IMG/VR virus record: IMGVR_UViG_3300025133_000048
Span: 32,390-96,389 of that record
From: a virus
Length of the DNA: 64,000 nt
Strand: one strand, 5' to 3'
Shown here: positions 3,759 through 37,427 of the stretch, piece after piece
How positions within the stretch are numbered: position 1 is the stretch's first letter
How the letters are laid out: the number at the start of each line of letters is the position of its first letter
Made by a program: the position numbers and the translations under genes
The notes under the pieces: model-generated
Seen by the model: the letters and a program-made list of their open reading frames with translations, nothing else
Told to the model about the DNA's origin: nothing
The model's database searches: none

Positions 3759-5185
3759 GTATAAAAAGATACACAGCAATAGCAGATAACACAATCACAA
3801 ATGCCTTTGAGAGCGATTTGTCCACCAGAGCTACTGGGTCAAATGCCGGAGCAGCCGATGTAATAGAGATTTTTTCAATTTATGGTCAAGCGACAACTAG
3901 CTCTGCTGAGGCATCTAGAGCACTTGTACAATTTGACACATCACAGATTTCAGCTGATAGAACCGCTGGATTAATTCCGGCCAATGGGTCAGTTTCGTTT
4001 TATTTAAAAATGTTCAACACTGAACACATCGAAACAACACCAAGAAGTTTTACATTAGCTGTACAAGCAGTTTCACAGTCTTGGGAAGAGGGGAATGGAT
4101 TAGATCTTGATTCTTATACTGATTTAACTTATAACAACATAGGTTCAAATTGGATAAAAAGATCAGGCAATAACAGCTGGGTTGCTCAAGGGGGTGATTT
4201 TCACACAACACCAGTATTTACAGCGACATTTGACAAAGGATCAGAGGATCTTGAAATCAATGTAACTTCGCTAGTAGAAGAGTGGATTGCTGGAACCAAA
4301 GATAACTACGGTTTTGGCATCTTCTTATCCGGATCATATGAATCCGGAACAACATCTTATTATACAAAAAAGTTCTTCGCTAGATCAAGCGAATTCTTTT
4401 TTAAAAAGCCGATCATAGAAGCAAGGTTCAACGACGACATCAAAGATGATCGTGGTAATTTTTATTCCTCTTCTTCCCTCGCACCTGCTGAGGACAACCT
4501 TAATACAATTTATCTATACAACTATGTTAGAGGAAGGCTTAGAAATATACCGTCAATTGATACCGGCAACATCTATGTTGATTTTTATCAAACCCTAGGC
4601 GGAACAGCAGAGACACTATGTATTGATACACCAGCCACAGGCGGGTATGTCTCTGCTGGTATCTATTCTTGTTCTGTTTGTGTTTCCACAACCGCCACCA
4701 CTCTTAGAGATGTCTGGCACGATGGATCAGGAACACAATTTCATACAGGAACTATTTCTGTAAATTCTCTCGCATCAGAGACACATAGTACAAACCAAAG
4801 GTATGTCCTATCAATAAGTAACATGAAAAGCCAATATAGCAATCAAGAAACTGCAAGATTTAGATTATATGCACGTGTAAAAGATTGGTCTCCAACAATT
4901 TATACTGTTGCCTCTGCAGCTCCGGAAAACTTAATAATACCATCGGCATCTTATGAGGTTTGCCGTACATCAGATGGAGCCAGAGTTATACCTTTTGGAA
5001 CCGGCTCTGATTGGCATACCGGCTTGGCACATGATGTTAGCGGAAATTACTTTGATCTAGACTTATCTATGCTTGAAGCCGGTTATTCGTATGATATAAA
5101 ATTTGCCTTTTATAATGATTCGGTAACCGACTGGGAAGTTCAGCCGTACAACTTTAGATTCAAAGTGAGAGAAGATGAGTACTAA
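3755..5185 (+). CDS. Virion protein with DNRLRE-like beta-sandwich domain
   Basis: 476 aa. Residues 1 to about 215 resemble the DNRLRE-type beta-sandwich: an opening 'TAIADNTITNAFESD', a strand RALVQFDTSQI, a mid-domain WEEGNGLD with a conserved-looking Trp, and a LEINVTSLVEEWIAG strand near the end. The remainder is beta-rich with no recognised motif. It overlaps gp6 by 4 bases (ATGA) and the next gene by 11 bases, so it is part of the baseplate/tail-periphery operon. A structural role is likely; the exact position in the virion is unknown. Confidence 0.65.
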   Translation: MSIKRYTAIADNTITNAFESDLSTRATGSNAGAADVIEIFSIYGQATTSSAEASRALVQFDTSQISADRTAGLIPANGSVSFYLKMFNTEHIETTPRSFTLAVQAVSQSWEEGNGLDLDSYTDLTYNNIGSNWIKRSGNNSWVAQGGDFHTTPVFTATFDKGSEDLEINVTSLVEEWIAGTKDNYGFGIFLSGSYESGTTSYYTKKFFARSSEFFFKKPIIEARFNDDIKDDRGNFYSSSSLAPAEDNLNTIYLYNYVRGRLRNIPSIDTGNIYVDFYQTLGGTAETLCIDTPATGGYVSAGIYSCSVCVSTTATTLRDVWHDGSGTQFHTGTISVNSLASETHSTNQRYVLSISNMKSQYSNQETARFRLYARVKDWSPTIYTVASAAPENLIIPSASYEVCRTSDGARVIPFGTGSDWHTGLAHDVSGNYFDLDLSMLEAGYSYDIKFAFYNDSVTDWEVQPYNFRFKVREDEY

Positions 5186-6089
5186 ACCGATTTTTGCAAA
5201 ATCCGCTAATTCCGGATCAGAAGGAACAGAGTCTCCCGATTTTATTGTAGCCAAGTCCAAAGATTTAGATACATATATTCCTCCTATTGACTTCTCAACA
5301 GCATCTAACTTTGTTCGTTTTGGTTCTGGTGAAGAATATTATGCCGAGAGTATTAAGAGGATTTATAACGATTATCCGTATGATGGATCAGCTAAAGAAA
5401 AGACAAACTTCTATCTAAGCTCTTCTTATTTAGATAAATGGATGATTGATAATAAGTATCCAAGATATTCAGGATATGCTGCTTTTGATGGAACATCTTA
5501 CTTGCAAGTAAACAGGGGTTATCAAGAAGCAACAGTTCCATCGTCAACTAAGCTCTCAACACTCTTTGGTTCCAAGAAGGTTATACAAGATACAACAAAA
5601 AGAAGAAAACAAACAGCTTATTTTGATTTTGATGATGGTGTAACTTGGGAATGGAGAATGAAGATTGATGGATTTAATGGCTCATATAGTGGATCTTATT
5701 TGTATAAATTTTCTTCCGATGTGGGCTTTATCAATGTGGCATTAATTCATCAAGATCATCCCGTCAGCCCTACAGGCCAAAGTGTATTTAATCTTAATAT
5801 GTCCTCATCAGCAGGTTGGTTTGGAGCAACAATTTCAAATGACAACACTGTAACCACTTCGTCAATTGCAGACGGCTCATGGCACCATTATGCTATAAGT
5901 CTTTTTAGACTTGGATCTGATCTGGTATGTGATTTTTACTTTGATGGAAAGATAAATAAAAGAAAAGCGATAACAGCAGCCACATTTCCAAATCTGACCA
6001 GCTCTGTTACAAGCTTTATAATGTCCGGCTCTTGGAGTGTAGGTGCAACACCTTACGGCTCTGGTCCCTCAATTGACTTTGGAGGTTAA
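5175..6089 (+). CDS. LamG-domain structural protein, N-terminal piece of a split domain
   Basis: 304 aa. From about residue 95 it shows a concanavalin-like (LamG) fold: AAFDGTSYLQV, a central WEWRMKIDG, and SWHHYAISLF leading into a strand DFYFDGKINKRK. LamG domains usually end with a strand like 'xxIDEFRFWNxxRTPEEI'. That strand is missing here and appears instead at the start of the next ORF, in the same reading frame, after TAA AAA TAA TTT. The product therefore seems to lack the last strand of its jelly roll. A virion surface or carbohydrate-binding role is inferred from the domain type. Confidence 0.7.
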   Translation: MSTKPIFAKSANSGSEGTESPDFIVAKSKDLDTYIPPIDFSTASNFVRFGSGEEYYAESIKRIYNDYPYDGSAKEKTNFYLSSSYLDKWMIDNKYPRYSGYAAFDGTSYLQVNRGYQEATVPSSTKLSTLFGSKKVIQDTTKRRKQTAYFDFDDGVTWEWRMKIDGFNGSYSGSYLYKFSSDVGFINVALIHQDHPVSPTGQSVFNLNMSSSAGWFGATISNDNTVTTSSIADGSWHHYAISLFRLGSDLVCDFYFDGKINKRKAITAATFPNLTSSVTSFIMSGSWSVGATPYGSGPSIDFGG

Positions 6090-6098
6090 AAATAATTT

Positions 6099-9000
6099 AT
6101 GGCTATTACACTTACTATACATTCTTGTTCATTTGACGAGTTTCGTTTTTGGAATAAAAAACGAACACCAGAAGAAATTTATAGAAACTATCAATCAACA
6201 ATTGATGGCGGCGCTTCAACAGACGACTACAAGACAGAACTTTCAATGTATTTTAAATTCAATGAAGGTAACACAGGCACAGACTCTGAGGACAGAGTAG
6301 TCCTTGACTATTCCGGAAGAATTTCAAATGCATATTGGCAGGATTATTCTGCTGGTCTTCGTGCCACTGGTTCTTCTTTAACCTCTGAAAGAGGCGATCT
6401 GATTATAAGATCCAGTCACCCAGATGTTATTGCTCTAGAGACTGAAATGCAAACTAGCGGATCTAATCATGATGCTAATAATAACATGTATTTGTATGAT
6501 CTGACGCCACAATGGATAAGAGATGAAGATGAACAAAATGGAAAAGAGTTCAAGAAGCTTGTTCAAATAATTGGTTCTTATTTTGATACTCTATACGCAC
6601 AAGTGGAAAGACTACCGGAACTTCGTGATAAGGGCTATACAACTTCGAATAACAAAGCAAAGCCATTTGCGAATCGTCTTCTAAGCGATAAAGGGTTTAA
6701 TGTTGAGGATGTTTTAACCAATCGATCAATTTTGGAATTTTTCAATTCCCGCGATCTGAATGGTAATAAATACGAAAAAGAAATTACAGAGATAAAGAAT
6801 CTAATTTATCTCAACATTTACAACAACCTCGAACACATTTACAAATCAAAAGGCACCGAAAAATCATACCGAAATCTTCTTCGGTGCTTTGGCATAGATG
6901 ATGAAATAGTAAAGCTTAACCTCTATACAGACAATGCAACACAATATCTTGTTGACAAGACCAAACACACCTCACAAAAGACCAAGCATATTGATTTTTC
7001 TAGACCTGCTCGTTTCGGAGCAACAGTGTACCAACAGAATTTCATTTCTGGCTCAAAACTTGAGAGATTAGAGAAGAATTTAGCACTAACTGCCGAAGTT
7101 GAGGTATTAGTACCGGTAAAACCAAAGCAAACAGATTCTTCTTATTTTTACACAAGTTTTCAATCATCTTCGGTATTTGGACTTGATGCAGTAGATTCAT
7201 CCGGAGTTCAATATAGTGGATCAAACCTCCACGACAACTTTCAATTATATTTGGTTAAAGATGCCGTGGAGAGTACACGAGCCAAATGGGTTCTAGAACA
7301 AATAAATCATGGCACATCCACAACCTCAATTGTATTGACTTCTTCTTATTATGATGAGATCTATAACAATCAAAGATGGAACTTGGCGGTTAGAGTATAC
7401 CCTGAAGGTTATCCCTTTGCTGGTTCATACCTAACTTCATCTAATCCTTCATACACTTTGGAACTTTATGGAGTTTCTCACAATTTAGACGAAGTCTTGC
7501 ATGAATTTAATGTATCAACGACTCTATTACATGAAACAGGCTCATCACTATTATCAGCTGATAAGAAAGCATATGTTGGTGCTCGTCGCACCAATTGGTC
7601 TGGCTCGGTTGTTACCAATAGTGATGTTAAGATCGCTGCGACCTCAATTTACTTTGATAAGCTCAATAATAAATCAATAAAACAGCATAACAAAGATCCC
7701 ATGAATTATGGGCATGATAAAGTATTTGGAAATCCAACGCTTTTTGCTACAAACCAAAGCGGAGTTCACATTCCAGCCCAAGATAGCTTGGCACTTCATT
7801 GGGATTTTCAAACGGTATCAACTTCTGATTCAAGCGGAGAGTTTGTAGTTGAGGATTACTCAAGCGGCTCTTCAACAGGAAGATATGGATGGCTTGAAAA
7901 TGTAATCAAAGCAGAACACAAAGGAACCGGAGATGAATTTCCAGTTTCTTCAACAGCTGTTGTATCAAACGAGTTTATTTTCGCTTCAAAGAAAGAGCTT
8001 CCAGAGATCTCCTTTACATCCGACACAATAAAGATAATGGGAGATGCCGATACCTTTCTCTATGAAGATGAAGACGTTACCGACAACATTTTTTCATTTG
8101 AAAAGAGTATGTATCAATCAGTATCAGAAAACATGCTAAACATGTTCTCAACAATCGTTGAGTATTCTAATCTATTTTCAAAGCCAATTGATAGATACAG
8201 ACAGGATTATAAGAGATTAGACCATGCTCGCCAAATCTTTTTCGAAAGAGTAACAGGTGACATGGATTTGGACAAATTCACAGAGTATTTTAAGTGGATT
8301 GATCGATCAGTTTCCTATTTTTTAGAACAGCTTCATCCGGCTTCTGCCAAGTTCAATGCAGGACTGTCGGACATGGTTGAATCTCATATTCTCGAGAGAC
8401 CAAAGTACCAACATAGGTTTCCATCAATTGAATCTAAAACAATAACCGACAGCGGAGTCAAAGGCGGAATCAAAGGTATAGCAGAGCGCCGTTATAATTG
8501 GCAATACGGACATGCTCCGGATTATAAAAACGAAGACTACAATGCAAAAGCAGTTAGCCTTGCATCCACATGTTGTTTACAATATGCAGATAGAACCGTA
8601 TTTACCGGTTCTTCCGGAGCACTTTCAATAGGGTTTTGGTTTAAGCCTGCGAACACCACCATTGGCCGAGTTATAATTGACTTTGGTAATAATTTAAAAA
8701 TCTCACAAAATGCTACAAACAAAATAGTTGCAACGATTGTCACGTCTGGTGGAGTATCAGTCGGAACAACTACTGCCAACCCAGTTACAACCGATGCATT
8801 TATTTTAATTTCTTGGGACCATGCTGATCCGACTAATGGAGATGTTAACATATATATTCGAGGCTCTGTGGAAGAAGACATGGCATATAGCGCAGGAGCA
8901 ACCGCATTTAGGGCCCTAGACGCTGGGTCTTTACAAATTGGATCAGCAGCGGTTGATGGCGATGTATTTGATGAAGTGTCCATTTGGGACAAAATAATGA

Positions 9001-28101: not shown

Positions 28102-31100
28102 ATGACTTATAAAATTGCACACGTAGCTGACACCCACATCAGGAATCTAAAATTTCATGATGAATACAGGGTTGTATTTCGCAAAATATACCAAAAACTT
28201 CGGGATCAAGGAGTTGATGCCATTGTTCATTGCGGTGACTTAGCACATACAAAGACACAACTATCGCCAGAGTATTTCGCACTCGCAACAGAGTTTCTCT
28301 ACAATCTTGCCGAGATTGCTCCCACTTATATTATATTGGGCAACCACGACGGAAATTTAAAGAACTCTGCACGAGAAGATGCGGTAACTCCGATTGTCAC
28401 TGCTCTGAAGCACGCAAACCTTCACTTATTAAAAGATTCAGGTGAGTATAACTTCAATGGCAACCTTACATTCAATGTTAAGTCAATTTTTGACCGAGAC
28501 AATTGGATTGAGCCCACAGATCAGTCCAGAGTCAACATTGGACTCTATCATGGTGCTGTAATGGGCTCAAAGACAGCAACTGGCTGGGCAATGGATCATG
28601 GAGACGACGACATTTCCATTTTCGCTAATTGTGATTATGCTATGCTTGGAGACATACATAAACCACAAATATTGGATGAAGAAGGAAGAGTACAATACGC
28701 TGGCTCCACAGTCCAGCAGAATTTTGGAGAATCTGGTAGAAAGGGTTACAAGCTCTGGACAATCAGAGGAAAAGATGATTTTAATGTTGAGCACGTCGGT
28801 ATTCTCTCCCCAAGGCCATTTATTACTATCTATTTAACAGAGAGCGGAGGTTTGCCGGAAGGAATAAACATACCACGCGGATGTCGCTTGAGGCTTATTG
28901 CTACCACTAATCTTCCTTCTAACAAGATAAGAATGGTAACAGAGTATTGTAAATCAAAATATAGTACTTATTCTGTTTCCTTCGTCAATAAATCGGAGGG
29001 CTCTTCTATGGACTCAATGAGTGGTTCTAATAAAATAGAGAACCTTCGTGACTTAGCTGTACAAGAGAAGTGGATTAGAGAATATCTAAAAGATTTTAAT
29101 TTGGAAGCAGAGATTGTGAAAGAGATCTTGGACTTAAATTCAAAGTTTAACATGGAGGCAGAAAGGAATGAACAAGTCAGTAGAAATGTTATTTGGAACA
29201 TTAAAGAGATGCGCTTTAACAATTTATTTAATTATGGGCCAAACAATTCAGTGGATTTTGCAAAAGTCTCTGGGATTGTCGGTATCTTTGGTAAAAACTA
29301 TAGCGGTAAATCTTCTATTATTGATTCTTTACTTTTCGGTCTTTATAATACCACCTCTAAAGGTGAAAGAAAGAACGTTCACATCATTAATCAAAACAAA
29401 GATCAAGCATCTATCAACTTGGTCTTCAATGCAGGAGGTCAGGATTATAAAGTTTCAAGGAATCTTAACAAGGTTAACAAAACCCTCCGAGGAAAAAAAG
29501 TAGTAGATGCGAAAGGCGATTTAGATTTCACCAATCTCACAATCAACGAATCTTGCAACGGAGACTCCAAGACTGATACTGATGCGAACATTCGCAAAGT
29601 AATTGGATCTATTGATGATTTCATGATTACTTCTATGGCATCTCAGCTTGATTCTCTTTCTTTTATCAAGGAAGGATCAACAAAACGCAAAGAGATACTT
29701 GCAAAGTTCTTAGATTTAGATTTGTTTGATAAAAAGTTCAAATTAGCCAAAGGTGCCGGCTCTGATATCGCTGCTCTTATCAAAAAGATGAAATCCAAGA
29801 ATTATTCCGGACAATTGGTTGCAAAGCAAGAAGAGCTTGAGGAAATCAAAGAAGACATTCAAAAGCAGCAAGAGCTGTGCTGTAAATTCACAGCTAGGCA
29901 TGATGAGTTGGTTTTAGAGCTTACAAAGATAGAGGAAGAACTAAATTCTCGTCCGACTGAAATAATTGACATTACAGCAGTAAAAGACCTTATAATCTTA
30001 AAGAATAACGACATAGATCGTTGCAAAGGTGAGATTGTAGCACTAAAAGATCTTATAGAGAAAAATAGTGAAATTGTGGAAGAAATTGATGCATTTTTGG
30101 GGTCTTTGTCACAAGATCGTCTGGAGACTTTAGAAAACAACTGGAGTATTTGGACCGGTGAACGAAGCGAGCTATCTTCAAAACTTAAATCAAAAGAAGT
30201 AAAGTATGTTAATGCTACAAAAAAGATTCACATGTTAGAGAACCACGAGTATGATCCAGACTGTAAGTTTTGTTGTGAGAATAAGTTTGTTAAAGATGCC
30301 AATAAAGCAGTAGAACAATTGCCCCAAGTTCAGGGTGAAATTAACGACTTACGGCACCTAATTGAAGATTTAGATTATAAAATAGATAATGTCGGCATAG
30401 AACAGATAAAAAGAGATCTTCAAAAAATTCAAGATCTAAGACAAAAGAAGCACAGAATGTTTTCCGAAGCCGAGCAGGCTAAAGTGAAGATTGAAGCGAC
30501 TGATTCTAAAATAGAATTATTAAGGAATGAAATCTGCACTCATGAAAACAAAGTTGAGGAGTATGAAGAAAACAAACATGTTATTGAAAATCTTTCAACT
30601 TTGCTTGGTGAACAGCGTGCCGTCAGGGCCAAGGTAGAAGAATATAAGGGCAAGATGGATAGGTGTGGTAAAAAAGTTCAAGGCTTTCTTATTGAACAAG
30701 GATCCGTTCAGCAGTTTGTTCAAACTATACAAGCACAAAAACAAGAACAGGAAGAGCTTGAAAGGGAATGGATAGCATATGATCTTTTTATGAGATGCAT
30801 GCATCCAAATGGAATCGCTTACGAGGTTATTAAGCAGAAGTTGCCAATAATAAACGAAGAGATCCAGAAGTGCCTTGCTAACATTGTTGACTTTGAAATT
30901 CTCTTTGAAAATAATGGAAAGAGCCTTGATATTCTTATTAAACATCCAAAATTTGAGCCTAGACCTTTATCTATGGGTTCTGGTGCCGAGAAGACGATTG
31001 CTGCGATGGCGATCAGATTGGCCCTGATTTCTATTACGAACTTACCAAAATCAACGATGTTTATTATGGATGAACCAGCAACAGCACTAGATCAAGAGCA

Positions 31101-31248
31101 TATGGAAGGTTTTATTCGTTTAATGGAAATGATCAAGACTAAGTTTAAAACTGTTTTAATTATCTCTCATCTAGATGCTTTGAAAGATTGTGTTGATATG
31201 ACAATTGACATAGACAAGGTTGGTGGTTTTGCAAAAATCAATATTTAA
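28102..31248 (+). CDS. Fused Mre11-like nuclease and Rad50-like ATPase (gp47-gp46 fusion)
   Basis: 1048 aa. The N-terminal 300 residues are an Mre11/SbcD-type phosphoesterase: DTH (10-12), GDLAH (45-49), GNHD (80-83), LYHGAV, then LGDIHKP near residue 193. From about residue 370 begins a Rad50/SbcC-type ATPase: Walker A GKNYSGKSS (397-405), two long coiled coils around a zinc-hook CKFC (C721, C724), a signature-like LSMGSGAEK (956-964) and Walker B FIMDEP (987-992). In T4 these are separate subunits, gp47 and gp46, which resect DNA ends for recombination-dependent replication. All key motifs are intact, so the fusion looks functional. GGAGG precedes the ATG. Confidence 0.93.
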   Translation: MTYKIAHVADTHIRNLKFHDEYRVVFRKIYQKLRDQGVDAIVHCGDLAHTKTQLSPEYFALATEFLYNLAEIAPTYIILGNHDGNLKNSAREDAVTPIVTALKHANLHLLKDSGEYNFNGNLTFNVKSIFDRDNWIEPTDQSRVNIGLYHGAVMGSKTATGWAMDHGDDDISIFANCDYAMLGDIHKPQILDEEGRVQYAGSTVQQNFGESGRKGYKLWTIRGKDDFNVEHVGILSPRPFITIYLTESGGLPEGINIPRGCRLRLIATTNLPSNKIRMVTEYCKSKYSTYSVSFVNKSEGSSMDSMSGSNKIENLRDLAVQEKWIREYLKDFNLEAEIVKEILDLNSKFNMEAERNEQVSRNVIWNIKEMRFNNLFNYGPNNSVDFAKVSGIVGIFGKNYSGKSSIIDSLLFGLYNTTSKGERKNVHIINQNKDQASINLVFNAGGQDYKVSRNLNKVNKTLRGKKVVDAKGDLDFTNLTINESCNGDSKTDTDANIRKVIGSIDDFMITSMASQLDSLSFIKEGSTKRKEILAKFLDLDLFDKKFKLAKGAGSDIAALIKKMKSKNYSGQLVAKQEELEEIKEDIQKQQELCCKFTARHDELVLELTKIEEELNSRPTEIIDITAVKDLIILKNNDIDRCKGEIVALKDLIEKNSEIVEEIDAFLGSLSQDRLETLENNWSIWTGERSELSSKLKSKEVKYVNATKKIHMLENHEYDPDCKFCCENKFVKDANKAVEQLPQVQGEINDLRHLIEDLDYKIDNVGIEQIKRDLQKIQDLRQKKHRMFSEAEQAKVKIEATDSKIELLRNEICTHENKVEEYEENKHVIENLSTLLGEQRAVRAKVEEYKGKMDRCGKKVQGFLIEQGSVQQFVQTIQAQKQEQEELEREWIAYDLFMRCMHPNGIAYEVIKQKLPIINEEIQKCLANIVDFEILFENNGKSLDILIKHPKFEPRPLSMGSGAEKTIAAMAIRLALISITNLPKSTMFIMDEPATALDQEHMEGFIRLMEMIKTKFKTVLIISHLDALKDCVDMTIDIDKVGGFAKINI
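31201..31226 (+). repeat. Direct repeat, left copy (inside the end of the gp47-gp46 gene)
   Basis: The 26 bases encoding TIDIDKVGG are repeated exactly 400 bp downstream with 24 of 26 identical positions. The left copy is the functional gene end. Confidence 0.85.
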
Positions 31249-31272
31249 GCGAACCACTTTATGACGACCCTC

Positions 31273-31280
31273 CTATTTAT
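31273..31280 (+). promoter_or_regulatory. Intergenic octamer CTATTTAT, candidate late promoter (copy 3)
   Basis: Located in the gap after the fusion gene, 32 bases before the ATG of the small HTH ORF. Confidence 0.4.
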
Positions 31281-31312
31281 GAAAGCCCAAATCAATAGAG
31301 ACAAGACAAAAA

Positions 31313-31570
31313 ATGAGCGAAGCCAAGAAAGGGCAGGCTCCAAAAGTTGCCCACCAACCACCATCAGAAAAAACAAAGAAAAAACTCAGCAACCTTGCAA
31401 AACTAAGAGTTGGTCATAAAAATCCAAACTCTCGTCTTACACCAAGTCAAGTAAAAGAAATAAGAGAAGATTTTAATAAAAAAGAGCTAACAAACAAACA
31501 GATAGCAGAAAAATATAGCGTCTCCTTATCGACAATAAAGAGGATAAAATATGGCAAAACAAATTATTAG
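31313..31570 (+). CDS. Small HTH protein, homing-endonuclease-like remnant
   Basis: 85 aa, basic. Residues about 17-32 (PPSEKTKKKLSNLAKLR) resemble the NUMOD3-type DNA-binding motif of phage homing endonucleases. Residues about 42-83 form a helix-turn-helix (LTPSQVKEIREDF ... NKQIAEKYSVSLSTIKRIKYG) of the kind found at the end of HNH endonucleases. No HNH, GIY-YIG or other nuclease motif is present. It may be a degraded mobile gene or a stand-alone DNA-binding protein. It lies between two copies of the end of the recombination gene, which fits an insertion. The ribosome binding site is weak. Confidence 0.6.
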   Translation: MSEAKKGQAPKVAHQPPSEKTKKKLSNLAKLRVGHKNPNSRLTPSQVKEIREDFNKKELTNKQIAEKYSVSLSTIKRIKYGKTNY

Positions 31571-31579
31571 AACAGATTA

Positions 31580-31587
31580 CTATTTAT
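31580..31587 (+). promoter_or_regulatory. Intergenic octamer CTATTTAT, candidate late promoter (copy 4)
   Basis: At the right end of the inserted segment, 63 bases before the membrane-protein gene at 31650, a longer spacing than in most other copies. Confidence 0.35.
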
Positions 31588-31591
31588 AATT

Positions 31592-31648
31592 GATGTAGCC
31601 ACAATTGATATAGACAAGGTTGGAGGCTACGCTAACGTAAAGGTGTAA
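31592..31648 (+). pseudogene. Displaced 3' end of the gp46 coding region
   Basis: In one frame this reads DVATIDIDKVGGYANVKV and a stop, closely matching the true end of the fusion gene, VDMTIDIDKVGGFAKINI. Upstream of it no further similarity is evident. It looks like the original gene end, left behind when the segment to its left was inserted and supplied a replacement. The last bases (AAAGGTG) now also act as leader for the next gene. Confidence 0.75.
31601..31626 (+). repeat. Direct repeat, right copy
   Basis: Partner of the repeat at 31201, 400 bp apart, differing at two positions (both third codon positions). Confidence 0.85.
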
Positions 31649-31649
31649 C

Positions 31650-31943
31650 ATGGACAAAGAACAAATACTTGAATCTCTCAATGAGAATATCATAGAACAA
31701 GGACAAGAAAAGCTAGCTAACGTTGATTTTCAAAAAGAACTTCAGCTTAACAACCCGAATAAGGGTATGCTCGACATCGTACAGGAGAAAATCATCTCTC
31801 GTAAGCTTCTTGTTTTTATTTGCGCAACCGGCCTCCTTGCTTCGGCTCATTTAGATCCAGAGACTTGGGGAATGATTGCAATGATTTATATTGGCGGACA
31901 AACCGCCGTTGACTTTGCCAAGATGTGGCGTCATGGTGGTTAG
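31650..31943 (+). CDS. Small membrane protein, possible holin
   Basis: 97 aa. A charged N-terminal half is followed by two short hydrophobic stretches, LLVFICATGLLASA and WGMIAMIYIGGQTAV, separated by a polar turn (HLDPET), then a basic end (FAKMWRHGG). This two-helix hairpin with a charged tail is compatible with a small phage holin, but the family is not recognised. It is followed immediately by two further small genes with membrane or coiled-coil features, which supports a lysis-cassette reading. No endolysin gene was found beside it. Confidence 0.5.
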   Translation: MDKEQILESLNENIIEQGQEKLANVDFQKELQLNNPNKGMLDIVQEKIISRKLLVFICATGLLASAHLDPETWGMIAMIYIGGQTAVDFAKMWRHGG

Positions 31944-32268
31944 TTTAGCAAAAGCTAAAGCATGGATTAAAGCTCACTGGAACTGGTTGGTTCTGGTGGG
32001 CTTATTCTGTTTGGCCTATGCATTGGGCAAGAGAGACTCTTCAACCTTACTCGCTCAAGCAACAATAGCAAAAGATCAATACAAAAAAGAATCGGAAGAG
32101 ATAGAGCTAGCAGCTAGAGAGAGGGCCAAGCGAGATAAGAAGATTGATAATAAGACGAAAGAAGATATAAAAAAGATTGAAGAAAAGAGAGAAAAGGATC
32201 TGGCTCGTTTGGAAACAGACATAGATGCCGACCAAGTATTCAGAGATTTAGGGATAGAGAAAAAATGA
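31933..32268 (+). CDS. Single-pass membrane coiled-coil protein, Rz/i-spanin-like
   Basis: I place the start at ATG 31933 (111 aa, overlapping the previous gene by 11 bases); a longer in-frame start exists at 31891 but would put a polar tail before the membrane anchor. An N-terminal membrane segment (WLVLVGLFCLAYALG) is followed by a highly charged helical coiled coil (KESEEIELAARERAKRDKK...) to the end. This layout matches inner-membrane spanins of Gram-negative phages, though such proteins are also found with other jobs. It overlaps the next gene by ATGA. Confidence 0.5.
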   Translation: MVVSLAKAKAWIKAHWNWLVLVGLFCLAYALGKRDSSTLLAQATIAKDQYKKESEEIELAARERAKRDKKIDNKTKEDIKKIEEKREKDLARLETDIDADQVFRDLGIEKK

Positions 32269-33892: not shown

Positions 33893-35482
33893 ATGACTCT
33901 TAAGTTAACAAAACAAGAGATCGTAAAAGAGATCGTTAAGTCGGGAAAAGATCCAACATATTTTATTAATAATTATTGTAGGATTTCACACCCACTTAAG
34001 GGTCTTATCCCTTTTAATACTTACCCGTATCAGGACGATCTAATAAATGACTTTAACGATTATCGTTTTAATGTTATTTTAAAAGGCAGGCAGCTTGGAA
34101 TCTCAACGATTTCGGCTGCTTATGCTGTTTGGTTTATGCTATTTCACAAAGAGAAGAATATTCTCGTAATGGCCACAAAGTTCTCAACAGCAGCCAACTT
34201 GGTTAAAAAAGTAAAGCAGGTTATGAAGAACCTCCCGCCTTGGATGCAAGTCGCAAAGATCAGCATTGACAACAGAACATCTTTTGAATTATCAAATGGC
34301 TCAACCATCAAAGCAGTGGGAACATCAGCAGACGCTGGTCGTTCGGAAGCTCTATCTTTGCTCATTATAGACGAGGCAGCACACGTTGAAGGGCTTGATG
34401 ACCTCTGGGCAGGACTCTATCCCACTCTGTCGACTGGTGGTCGTTGTATTGCCTTGTCGACACCTCTGGGTGTTGGAAACTGGTTCCACAGAACTTATGT
34501 TGATGCCGAGAGTGGTGATAATGAATTTCATCCGGTAAAGCTCCCATGGGATGTGCATCCAGAAAGAGATCAAGCATGGTTTGAGAAAGAGACCAAGAAT
34601 ATGTCGCGACGACAGATTGCTCAAGAGCTTGAATGTAATTTTAATACATCTGGTGACACTGTGATTCATCCGGATGACATTGGATGGCTTATTAATCTTA
34701 TAGAAGAACCACAGTATAGAACTGGTTTTGATCGTAACCTTTGGATTTGGGAAAAGTATCAAGAAGGAGCGCCTTATCTTTTAGTGGCAGATGTTGCTCG
34801 TGGAGATGGTGCCGACTCTTCTGTTTTTCATGTGCTGAGAACAGATACAATGCAAATCGCAGCCGAGTATCAGGGTAAGCCAAGCTTAGACCACTATTCA
34901 AGGATTCTGAATGATGCTGGAAGAGAATACGGCACTTGTTTGTTGGTTGTTGAGAATGTTGGTATTGGTATTTCTGTTTTAGAAAAGCTTCGCGACTTAG
35001 ATTATCCCAATCTTTATTATTCGATCAAATCGACACATAAATATGTAGACCCTGTTGAGGGAGAATACAACGACCAAGCGGTTATGGGCTTTACCACTTC
35101 ATCAAAAACAAGACCTCTTATTGTGGCTAAGCTCGAAGAATACATAAGAAATAAGCTAATAAGACCGAGGTCTCAAAGGCTATTCTCAGAGGTTAAGACA
35201 TTCATTTGGAATAATGGGAAGCCGCAGGCAATGAGAAGCTATCATGATGATTTAATAATGTCTTTGGCAATTGCTTGTTGGGTTAGAGATACTGCTTTAG
35301 AGGTCTCACAGAAGGAAGTTCAATATCAAAAGGCCATGCTTGACTCTATGTATTGCTCTTCAAAAACATTAAATACGGCTATCAAAGGAATGAAAGAGTA
35401 TGATAAAAGAGAAACCTTTGATGAAAAGTATGAAAAAGAAATAGAGATCGTTAAAGATTTCCCTTGGATTTTTAAAGGCTAG
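33893..35482 (+). CDS. 17: Terminase large subunit, gp17-like
   Basis: 529 aa (T4 gp17 is 610). The N-terminal ATPase has a P-loop KGRQLGIST (64-72) and Walker B LLIIDEAAH with D160 and E161. The C-terminal nuclease shows LLVADVARGDGADS (D300), LVVEN (E354) and YHDDLIMSLA (D452/D453), the RNase-H-type acids of headful-packaging nucleases. It cuts concatemers and drives DNA into the prohead through the portal. The P-loop has Ile where T4 has the GKT lysine, but K64 could serve instead. The start at 33893 has AGGGG upstream. Confidence 0.92.
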   Translation: MTLKLTKQEIVKEIVKSGKDPTYFINNYCRISHPLKGLIPFNTYPYQDDLINDFNDYRFNVILKGRQLGISTISAAYAVWFMLFHKEKNILVMATKFSTAANLVKKVKQVMKNLPPWMQVAKISIDNRTSFELSNGSTIKAVGTSADAGRSEALSLLIIDEAAHVEGLDDLWAGLYPTLSTGGRCIALSTPLGVGNWFHRTYVDAESGDNEFHPVKLPWDVHPERDQAWFEKETKNMSRRQIAQELECNFNTSGDTVIHPDDIGWLINLIEEPQYRTGFDRNLWIWEKYQEGAPYLLVADVARGDGADSSVFHVLRTDTMQIAAEYQGKPSLDHYSRILNDAGREYGTCLLVVENVGIGISVLEKLRDLDYPNLYYSIKSTHKYVDPVEGEYNDQAVMGFTTSSKTRPLIVAKLEEYIRNKLIRPRSQRLFSEVKTFIWNNGKPQAMRSYHDDLIMSLAIACWVRDTALEVSQKEVQYQKAMLDSMYCSSKTLNTAIKGMKEYDKRETFDEKYEKEIEIVKDFPWIFKG

Positions 35483-35511
35483 TTGACAAAAGCATCTTTT
35501 TATGCTATAAT
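35483..35511 (+). promoter_or_regulatory. Sigma70-type promoter for the portal gene
   Basis: Perfect TTGACA (35483-35488), 17-base spacer, perfect TATAAT (35506-35511). Lies immediately after the terminase stop codon and reads into the portal gene. Confidence 0.88.
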
Positions 35512-35515
35512 ACAA

Positions 35516-35523
35516 CTATTTAC
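35516..35523 (+). promoter_or_regulatory. Octamer variant CTATTTAC next to the portal promoter
   Basis: Differs by one base from the intergenic octamer and lies five bases after the sigma70 -10 box, 18 bases before the portal ATG. It may give the portal both promoter types, or be a chance match. Confidence 0.3.
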
Positions 35524-35540
35524 AAAGGAAAGGAACTCTT

Positions 35541-37427
35541 ATGGCCAAAAACAAAAAATCACCTTATAATCCGGAATCCGGACTTTTTAAATCTTTAACA
35601 AGATTATTTTCCGGCCCGATTACACAAAGAAGAACACAGACAGGACGACAGTTACGTCGGAAGCATCTTGACATGTATTCTAGCAACTTCAAGTCCACCT
35701 CTGGTCGGCAATTCAAGAAGTGGGAAAACAACCCCATAAACTCAATAACTCTAAACATGATCTCAAACAGAAATCGAGCTGAGAGATACATAGACTTTGA
35801 TGAAATGGAATACGTACCGGAAATTGCTTCATCACTAGATATCTACGCAGATGAGATGACAACACATACGGAAATACGCCCGATGCTTCGCGTTAAGTGT
35901 GCAAATGAAGAAATCAAGCATGTACTTGCAAATCTTTATCACAATATCTTAAACATCGAGCACAATCTATTTGGATGGTCGCGTACTATGTGTAAGTATG
36001 GAGATTTCTTTCTCTATTTAGACATTGATGAAAATCTGGGTATTAGAAACGCCATCGGCCTACCTCCACAGGAAATAGAGAGACTTGAAGGTGAGGACGA
36101 AACCAATGCCAACTATGTTCAATTTCAATGGAATACAGCCGGTCTTACTTTGGAAAATTGGCAGATCGCACACTTTCGTATTCTAGGAAACGACAAACAT
36201 GCTCCGTACGGAACCTCAGTATTAGAGGCGTCTAGACGTATTTATCGACAACTGATTCTATTAGAAGATGCAATGATGGCTTATCGTATTGTTCGTGCAC
36301 CCGAACGTCGTGTATTTAAGATCGATGTTGGAGGGATACCCCCACAAGATGTAGAACAATACATGCAAAAAGTCATGACCCAAATGAAGCGTCACCAAGT
36401 GGTTGATCCTACAACTGGTAAGGTAGATTTGCGTTACAACCCTCTGTCAATTGAAGAGGATTATTATATCCCTGTAAGAGGGCAAACTGCGACGGACATA
36501 CAGAATCTTGCTGGTGGCCAGTTCACAGGACAGATAGACGATGTTAAATATCTTAGAGACAAACTCTTTGCAGCACTTAAAATTCCGCAATCATACCTTA
36601 CCATGGGCGACGGAGCATCAGAAGACAAGGCTACTCTTGCACAGAAAGACATTCGCTTCGCCAGAACCATTCAAAGGCTTCAAAGAGTTATCATCTCAGA
36701 GCTAGAAAAGGTTGGAATAATACATCTTTACACTTTGGGCTATCGTGATGATGATTTACTGTCTTTTAAACTACAGTTAAATAATCCTTCAAAGATTGCT
36801 GAGTTGCAAGAAATTGAACACTGGAAGGCTAGGTTTGACATCGCAGCTTCCGCAACAGAAGGGTATTTCTCAAAAAGATGGGTATCAGAACACCTTCTGG
36901 GAATGTCGGAAGACGAGTTCCTTAGAAACCAACGAGAAATGTATTTTGATAAGAAATATGCTGCTAAGCTTGAATCCGCTGCTAATGGCGAAGCTCCACC
37001 GGAAGATTCTGGTGGTCTCGGAGATTTGGGCGGAGATCGAGGCGGAGATGAGGACCTTGGGGATTTAACTGATGATTTCGAAGCACCAGAAACTGAAGAA
37101 GCTCCCGATGAGGATCTTTTGGCCGAACCAGCAGCCAAGAGAGACGACGGAAAGAGAGGTCCTTATAAGAGACATCAACGTTCTTATGACAAGGGCGGAA
37201 GAATTAAAAATTATAAAAGCCTAGCTACACCAGAAACCGGAACAGACAGAACCACATGGGCTGGTAAAACTGGTTTTGGAGGACTAGACTCAATTGCAAA
37301 GGGTATGGTTGAGGCAAAAGAAAAACATGACGCATTGGATGAAGAGAAGCTATTTAAAACAAACGCAGAGGTTCAATCTCTGTTAGCAGGATTATTTAAC
37401 AAGGACAAAAAACATGAAACACAATAA
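35541..37427 (+). CDS. 20: Portal vertex protein, gp20-like
   Basis: 628 aa (T4 gp20 is 524). The body matches T4-type portals: EIASSLDIYADE near residue 95, KYGDFFLYLDI, a wing/stem region with HFRILGNDKHAPYGTSVLE, QLILLEDAMMAYRIVRAPERRVF, and VKYLRDKLFAALKIPQSYL. It forms the dodecameric ring through which DNA enters. The extra length is a C-terminal extension (about 475-628) that is Gly/Asp/Glu-rich (GGLGDLGGDRGGDEDLGDL) and then basic. The gene has a perfect sigma70-type promoter and overlaps the next gene by 14 bases. Confidence 0.92.
   Translation: MAKNKKSPYNPESGLFKSLTRLFSGPITQRRTQTGRQLRRKHLDMYSSNFKSTSGRQFKKWENNPINSITLNMISNRNRAERYIDFDEMEYVPEIASSLDIYADEMTTHTEIRPMLRVKCANEEIKHVLANLYHNILNIEHNLFGWSRTMCKYGDFFLYLDIDENLGIRNAIGLPPQEIERLEGEDETNANYVQFQWNTAGLTLENWQIAHFRILGNDKHAPYGTSVLEASRRIYRQLILLEDAMMAYRIVRAPERRVFKIDVGGIPPQDVEQYMQKVMTQMKRHQVVDPTTGKVDLRYNPLSIEEDYYIPVRGQTATDIQNLAGGQFTGQIDDVKYLRDKLFAALKIPQSYLTMGDGASEDKATLAQKDIRFARTIQRLQRVIISELEKVGIIHLYTLGYRDDDLLSFKLQLNNPSKIAELQEIEHWKARFDIAASATEGYFSKRWVSEHLLGMSEDEFLRNQREMYFDKKYAAKLESAANGEAPPEDSGGLGDLGGDRGGDEDLGDLTDDFEAPETEEAPDEDLLAEPAAKRDDGKRGPYKRHQRSYDKGGRIKNYKSLATPETGTDRTTWAGKTGFGGLDSIAKGMVEAKEKHDALDEEKLFKTNAEVQSLLAGLFNKDKKHETQ

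Follow-up and report, generated by a model that had tools for sequence, protein, structure and literature searches.

A probable decayed GIY-YIG homing element with a replacement 3′ end in a phage sbcD-sbcC gene

The target gene and its doubled end

The window (the whole 64-kb stretch of viral DNA analysed here) carries a gene for a fused nuclease-ATPase of the SbcD-SbcC type whose last codons occur twice. The product, of a kind important in DNA repair, matches phrog_77 (SbcC-like, E 4e-52) and phrog_100 (SbcD-like, E 2e-29), and contains the Pfam domains Metallophos, AAA_23 and SMC_N. A T4-type terminase large subunit and a Portal_T4 protein are encoded at 33893-37427, and in its packaging genes the phage is a T4-like relative. 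The features of the locus, in which HEG stands for homing endonuclease gene, are as follows:

28102..31248, + strand: fused SbcD-SbcC (phage gp47/gp46-type) nuclease-ATPase, 1048 aa (phrog and Pfam matches)
31056..31248, + strand: foreign replacement 3′ end, Walker B to stop, beginning at the insertion point (informative-site switch)
31257..31290, + strand: degenerate 5′ leader of the lost HEG, with target-like sequence and the left arm of a former hairpin (TTTATGACGACCCTCCTATTTAT) (match to the L013 leader)
31313..31570, + strand: 85-aa ORF, C-terminal NUMOD3/HTH part of a GIY-YIG HEG (HEG alignment)
31579..31600, + strand: beginning of the displaced native end, coding start of Walker B (FIID..AT) (L001 match)
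31601..31648, + strand: displaced native end, final 48 nt (47/48 against L001)
31650..31943, + strand: next gene, 97 aa, its start abutting the remnant (kept in place in relatives)

The preliminary description had correctly placed the fusion gene, the 85-aa ORF between the two copies of the gene end, and both stop codons. The copies, at 31201-31248 and 31601-31648, are identical at 36 of 48 positions (75%) and have a spacing of exactly 400; no longer direct repeat occurs in the 3 kb searched. No integrase or recombinase gene was found between them, the 85-aa HEG remnant being the only ORF of note, and the analogy once drawn with integrative elements and their att repeats is unneeded.

Since a DNA search of known phages with this region gave zero matches, relatives were taken from viral contigs: L001 came from a search with the gene, and L025 and L026 from an alignment-based search. 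L001 is 82% identical to the fusion gene over its full length. All three are uninterrupted and lack the segment. The L001 gene ends in ...GGAGGCTACGCTAACGTAAAGGTGTAACATGG, which resembles the downstream copy in the window. Because the 48 nt of this copy match the L001 gene end at 47 positions and those of L025 and L026 at 46, the likeness of the two ends is not due to chance; the upstream end reaches 38/48 at best against any relative. Uninterrupted relatives had been expected to end like one of the two copies, and they match the downstream one, both for the window (L001, L025, L026) and for a second occupied locus, L013 (L287, L294). Only in the window and L013 was a second end seen when about 84 gene ends (first set) and 74 (second set) were scanned, and the other gene copies, about 150, show none. 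Elsewhere in the gene, identity between the window and L001 falls from about 98% to 62% near 28800 (28700-28850), within the SbcD part, and their primases are 99.7% identical; this is a recombination boundary unrelated to the insert.

The 85-aa ORF and intact elements at the same site

The 85-aa ORF matches the C-terminal third of HEGs found at the same site in other phages. Its whole length aligns with the NUMOD3-HTH part of these intact GIY-YIG genes, at 62.7% identity over 83 aligned residues with the L101 HEG (residues 163-245) and at 61.4% with that of L180. Of the two motifs first read into it, HTH is found by Pfam, weakly, and the NUMOD3 model is not reached by the ORF itself. Nor did Pfam detect in it the GIY-YIG catalytic domain that is present in L013, L100, L101 and L180. 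Because HEG homology starts just before the ATG (GAGACAAGACAAAAA), the nuclease domain must have been deleted, and the ORF is the C-terminal part of a GIY-YIG HEG that lost its catalytic domain and linker. The element has no visible nuclease, as had been remarked, its GIY-YIG domain having been lost; hence it is best read as a decayed homing element, and the window copy as a remnant of a family member, not an active one. Two sets of matches to the ORF were set aside: L014-L017 have only the HTH part in common with it, in an unrelated context, and L033 is an ordinary spanin-like gene.

L013 was recovered with the 85-aa ORF as query. Its copy of the gene has a normal end; next come a GIY-YIG/NUMOD3/HTH protein of 240 aa and a second gene end of 62 codons, which reaches from Walker B to the stop. 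The two ends are identical at 147 of 179 nt, and the repeat begins at Walker B. A GIY-YIG HEG follows the same gene end in seven other distinct alleles (L013, L100, L101, L180, L208, L209/L210 and L211); L100 equals L179, from another metagenome, over the 4.5 kb compared. A recognisable native end is kept in four of the seven (L013, L100 = L179, L180, L209/L210), which are four further distinct alleles of the kind that the preliminary description had proposed to look for, with the ORF beside duplicated gene ends. In the other three (L101, L208, L211) only a few junction bases (TATTTA-like) are left, and it is their position that points to a replaced end. The remnant junction begins at TATTTA in the window, L013, L100, L101 and L180. 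The intact HEGs match Pfam GIY-YIG and NUMOD3, and their profile matches the solved catalytic domain of I-TevI (1mk0, 1ln0; E 1e-13). GIY-YIG HEG loci were also scanned for proteins repeated on both sides; the other matches were mostly composition noise, tail-fibre repeats (L121) and paralogous NUMOD3 genes (L160, L195). The HEGs of L019-L023 lie beside other genes, without a duplicated end, and genome contigs yielded only distant HEGs and no sbcC-end case.

Between the gene stop and the HEG lies a short leader, which in L013 contains two target-like copies with 2 and 3 mismatches over 19 nt. The expectation for all three copies in the L013 locus is 0.01, and similar pairs are visible in L100, L101, L180, L208, L209 and L211. 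The leaders of the four intact elements tested form hairpins (z -5.4, -2.9, -3.4 and -4.3); in L013 and L180 a ribosome-binding site, AGGTGG, lies within the stem. The window leader matches that of L013 in 20 of 23 columns, and its hairpin is lost (z about +0.98). A target-like operator and a hairpin over the ribosome-binding site are known from T4 HEGs (PMC2988022), an analogy that suggests a regulatory function for the leader.

Could the 85-aa ORF have been domesticated, and retained as a DNA-binding repressor instead of persisting as mere debris? Its frame is still open over 95 codons, its HTH part is well conserved, and I-TevI represses via its DNA-binding domain (PMC2988022). Its start is however an internal Met of the ancestral HEG with no clear ribosome-binding site ahead of it, decay has reached the leader hairpin and one of the target-like copies, and only one such truncated copy was found. 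We regard retention as unlikely, if worth keeping in mind.

The insertion point and the origin of the two ends

Over the 240 nt before Walker B, the closest sequence to the window is L001 (89%; next 76%). After Walker B the window becomes the outlier (81%), and L001, L025 and L026 agree with each other. Informative sites were defined as those where the window and L001 agree against L025, or L001 and L025 agree against the window; their ratio is 63:23 before the switch and 5:32 after it (Fisher p 6e-10). The best position for this ancestry switch is between 31041 and 31056, just ahead of the Walker B codons. Positions 31056-31248, about 193 nt, are then a foreign replacement end; this end is in frame, and the fusion ORF is complete with its own stop. 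On the other side, the left edge of the remnant at 31579 (ACTATTTATAATTGATG) falls at the equivalent point in L001, between TCAAC and ACTATTTATACTTGACG. The stretch 31579..31600 corresponds to L001 ACTATTTATACTTGACGAGCC, and is the sole match to TATTTATACTTGATGAACC with at most 3 mismatches in the 64-kb window (expected 0.04). Because of the ancestry switch and of this left edge at 31579, the insert spans about 31056-31578 and consists of a foreign gene end plus the HEG remnant.

Three points of the preliminary description are revised by these boundaries. The replaced end is not a 48-nt stretch of last codons, being about 193 nt long (31056-31248), and the insertion point lies not at the very end of the gene but some 190 nt inside it, at Walker B. 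The remnant starts earlier than had been thought, at 31579, with about 20 nt coding for Walker B (ACTATTTATAATTGATG..GCC), followed by an internal deletion and then by the 48 nt. Judged by length, the native end at 31579-31648 is short by about 123 nt, the gap lying between the start of Walker B and the final 48 nt. The gene's last codons, a short way ahead of the next start codon, include AAAGGTG in both the window and L001, and L013 and L100 have GGAGG at this place. The motif looks like the ribosome-binding site of the next gene, for which L001 has the same ORF and start context. The remnant tail may have been kept as the start region of this next gene, which would account for the loss of the middle and the survival of the final 48 nt.

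The same history can be read at L013. Its uninterrupted relatives, L287 and L294, share 62/62 residues with the remnant and 57/62 with the supplied end, from which they differ at 5 positions; nucleotide informative sites group them with the remnant in 21 cases versus 7 (L287/L294 comparison; p 0.013). Between copies, the changes are mainly synonymous: dN is 0.058 and dS 1.77 in L013, 0.014 and 1.59 in L180, and 0.085 and 3.02 in L100. Because these testable copies differ almost only synonymously, the new end was imported, not recently duplicated on the spot and left to decay; the pattern is as expected if both ends evolved as functional genes in separate phages before meeting. An element that entered the 3′ part of a conserved gene, supplied a new end and left the old one as a remnant had been proposed from the window alone, and the relatives bear this out.

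An ordinary crossover between phages might have set two gene ends side by side, with the HEG as a passenger at the boundary and not its cause. The region is indeed mosaic (0.98 to 0.62 between window and L001 near 28800; about 76% to 94% between L001 and L025 near Walker B), and nuclease genes have been reported at exchange boundaries (PMC10448857). The shift between L001 and L025, both of them empty, occurs near the insertion point, hinting at recombination near Walker B without any HEG. Yet the window is L001-like on both flanks of the insert, which argues for an insertion and not for a simple exchange, and HEGs of one family occupy the identical base position in at least five lineages. We therefore hold a simple crossover to be improbable. 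Still less credible is a local duplication of the gene end within one genome, with the HTH ORF inserted separately between them at a later time. The 85-aa ORF is indeed flanked by two copies of one end, but the upstream one is foreign by the ancestry switch at Walker B, the copies in L013, L100 and L180 (dS >1.5, dN <0.09) diverged as functional genes in different lineages, and distinct alleles repeat this architecture at the very same point. Finally, a group I intron or an intein near the gene end, with the downstream copy as the real end after removal at the RNA or protein level, would suit the native character of that copy and the frequent presence of HEGs in introns, but is hardly tenable: Rfam gave no group I or II intron at 30900-32000 even at E 10, the upstream copy forms a complete, open end and has a stop to itself, and intein features are absent, with stops in frame.

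How widely is the site occupied? Eight occupied alleles stand against 144 distinct empty alleles with the motif, a biased estimate of the occupied fraction as HEG-like loci were partly gathered by HEG search. In a tree built from the gene body, which precedes the target, the occupied alleles require five changes, are interspersed among empty ones, and fall on at least five lineages. This placement is consistent with horizontal spread, loss and shared descent being inseparable from gain on such a tree, and some elements may have been inherited along with the gene instead of by homing. The target codons also differ. In the gene itself, the target motif begins with M in 6/8 occupied and 4/144 empty alleles (p 4e-7, ignoring kinship); kinship-aware counting of the F-to-M change leaves 5 independent pairs and no significance, which five pairs are too few to reach. 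The TATTTAT core in the gene is found in 0/8 occupied versus 68/144 empty alleles. F is kept in the occupied window and L180, with other core changes. From these sequences, the altered codons in occupied alleles probably confer self-immunity; kinship could also explain them. M is also found at the target in the empty alleles L074, L080, L289 and L293, which may be resistant or may have lost the element.

A proposed replacement strategy and its parallels

The window thus very probably holds a decayed homing element that invaded the Walker B region of sbcD-sbcC and carried a replacement 3′ end with it. In an intact element, this replacement 3′ end with its stop would be followed by a short leader, in which target-like copies occur and a hairpin spans the ribosome-binding site, and then by a GIY-YIG/NUMOD3/HTH gene ending at the insertion point. 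The endonuclease would cut an empty gene at or near Walker B, a conserved motif, and repair from an occupied phage genome would copy in the replacement end and the HEG. As the supplied end would be joined in frame, the gene would stay complete; the old end would be left behind the HEG as a remnant, its tail still serving as the start region of the next gene, and the supplied end, its target codons being changed, would escape a second cut. The window has undergone two deletions, one that took the GIY-YIG domain and one that took the greater part of the old end. The comparisons show one insertion point shared by distinct alleles, a supplied end of foreign origin, a remnant of native origin, HEG homology and decay; cleavage, homing, immunity and regulation are inferred.

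Homing genes are thought to spare the host gene by splicing (introns, inteins) or by an intergenic position. If the scheme is true, phages would have a third way, in which the element brings along a replacement for part of its target; this would let it invade invariant motifs unable to mutate to escape. The element would also swap gene ends between lineages, giving mosaic genes, and would offer a natural, long-evolved model for rescue-type gene drives, including the way they decay, by loss of the nuclease and shrinkage of the remnant. As an SbcCD-type nuclease, the target falls in the functional class of gp46/gp47, which is listed as possibly involved in T4 homing itself (PMC2988022). Occupied and empty pairs (L013 with L287, L100, L180) make the element directly testable.

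The closest parallel comes from fungal mitochondria, where mobile ORFs give atp6, atp9, cox2 or nad3 a new C-terminus while the native one stays in place behind them (PMC3630166). In Allomyces macrogynus (atp6) and Glomus (atp6, atp9, cox2, nad3), a HEG likewise lies in a conserved gene, with a foreign C-terminus in frame upstream and the displaced native one, matching relatives, downstream (PMC3630166). These are however mitochondrial genes, with mostly LAGLIDADG enzymes (GIY-YIG in atp9), whereas the phage element sits in a recombination nuclease gene, has a leader with a hairpin and target-like copies, and recurs across phage lineages. Among phage systems, the Seg family of T-even phages consists of free-standing GIY-YIG genes outside introns, next to a presumed target and with a hairpin leader (PMC2988022), but these lie between genes and cut far away; the phage element is inside its target gene with a replacement end. 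I-TevI, from the T4 td intron, shares the GIY-YIG catalytic domain (1mk0/1ln0), a C-terminal HTH, a target-like operator copy upstream of the ORF and a ribosome-binding site in a hairpin (PMC2988022), but there the host gene is saved by a self-splicing intron; here no intron was found and an end is supplied. Aeh1 nrdA/mobE, T4 gene 60/mobA and phage 25 gene 43/seg43 also have a HEG inside an important replication or nucleotide gene (PMC2988022), leaving two complementary polypeptides as opposed to a single complete ORF. HomeR, an engineered home-and-rescue gene drive (PMC7968924), is aimed at the 3′ coding region of an essential gene, for which it brings a recoded end as rescue; it is Cas9-based, designed, and used in Drosophila, unlike the natural phage element. 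No description of a replacement-end homing element in a phage was found in the open-access literature, and an earlier report may exist.

Related GIY-YIG HEGs are found in L215/L216 (4348-6557) and L218 (4690-6551), in the DnaG-type primase gene, a neighbour of sbcD-sbcC. There the native primase start (about 40 codons, to KKKMSVN) stays behind upstream, and downstream comes a complete gene whose start is different. Compared with the intact primase of the window, the left-behind starts are 78% and 70% identical, the new starts 57% and 52%, and the gene bodies 70% and 62%. In L218 the 60 nt before both starts are repeated, including a TTGACA-type promoter-like sequence and AGGAGG. These cases seem to be a mirror image, with a replaced gene start and the same strategy. 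Phages may thus host a natural home-and-rescue class, which we find somewhat likelier to be real than not: GIY-YIG genes that invade invariant motifs in recombination and replication genes and carry a self-immune replacement for part of the target, be it the 3′ end (sbcD-sbcC, Walker B) or the 5′ start, which comes with a promoter-like sequence and a ribosome-binding site of its own (primase, L215/L216 and L218).

A small ORF (MSNLKNLKINEETHEKLKNYCKEKG...) overlaps the HEG start in L215 and L218, and resembles ribbon-helix-helix proteins by eye. L281 (about 4935-6170) has a HEG flanked on one side by a RuvC-like N-terminal fragment and on the other by a complete, divergent RuvC-like gene (32.6% identity over 92 aa), possibly a whole-gene version of the replacement strategy.
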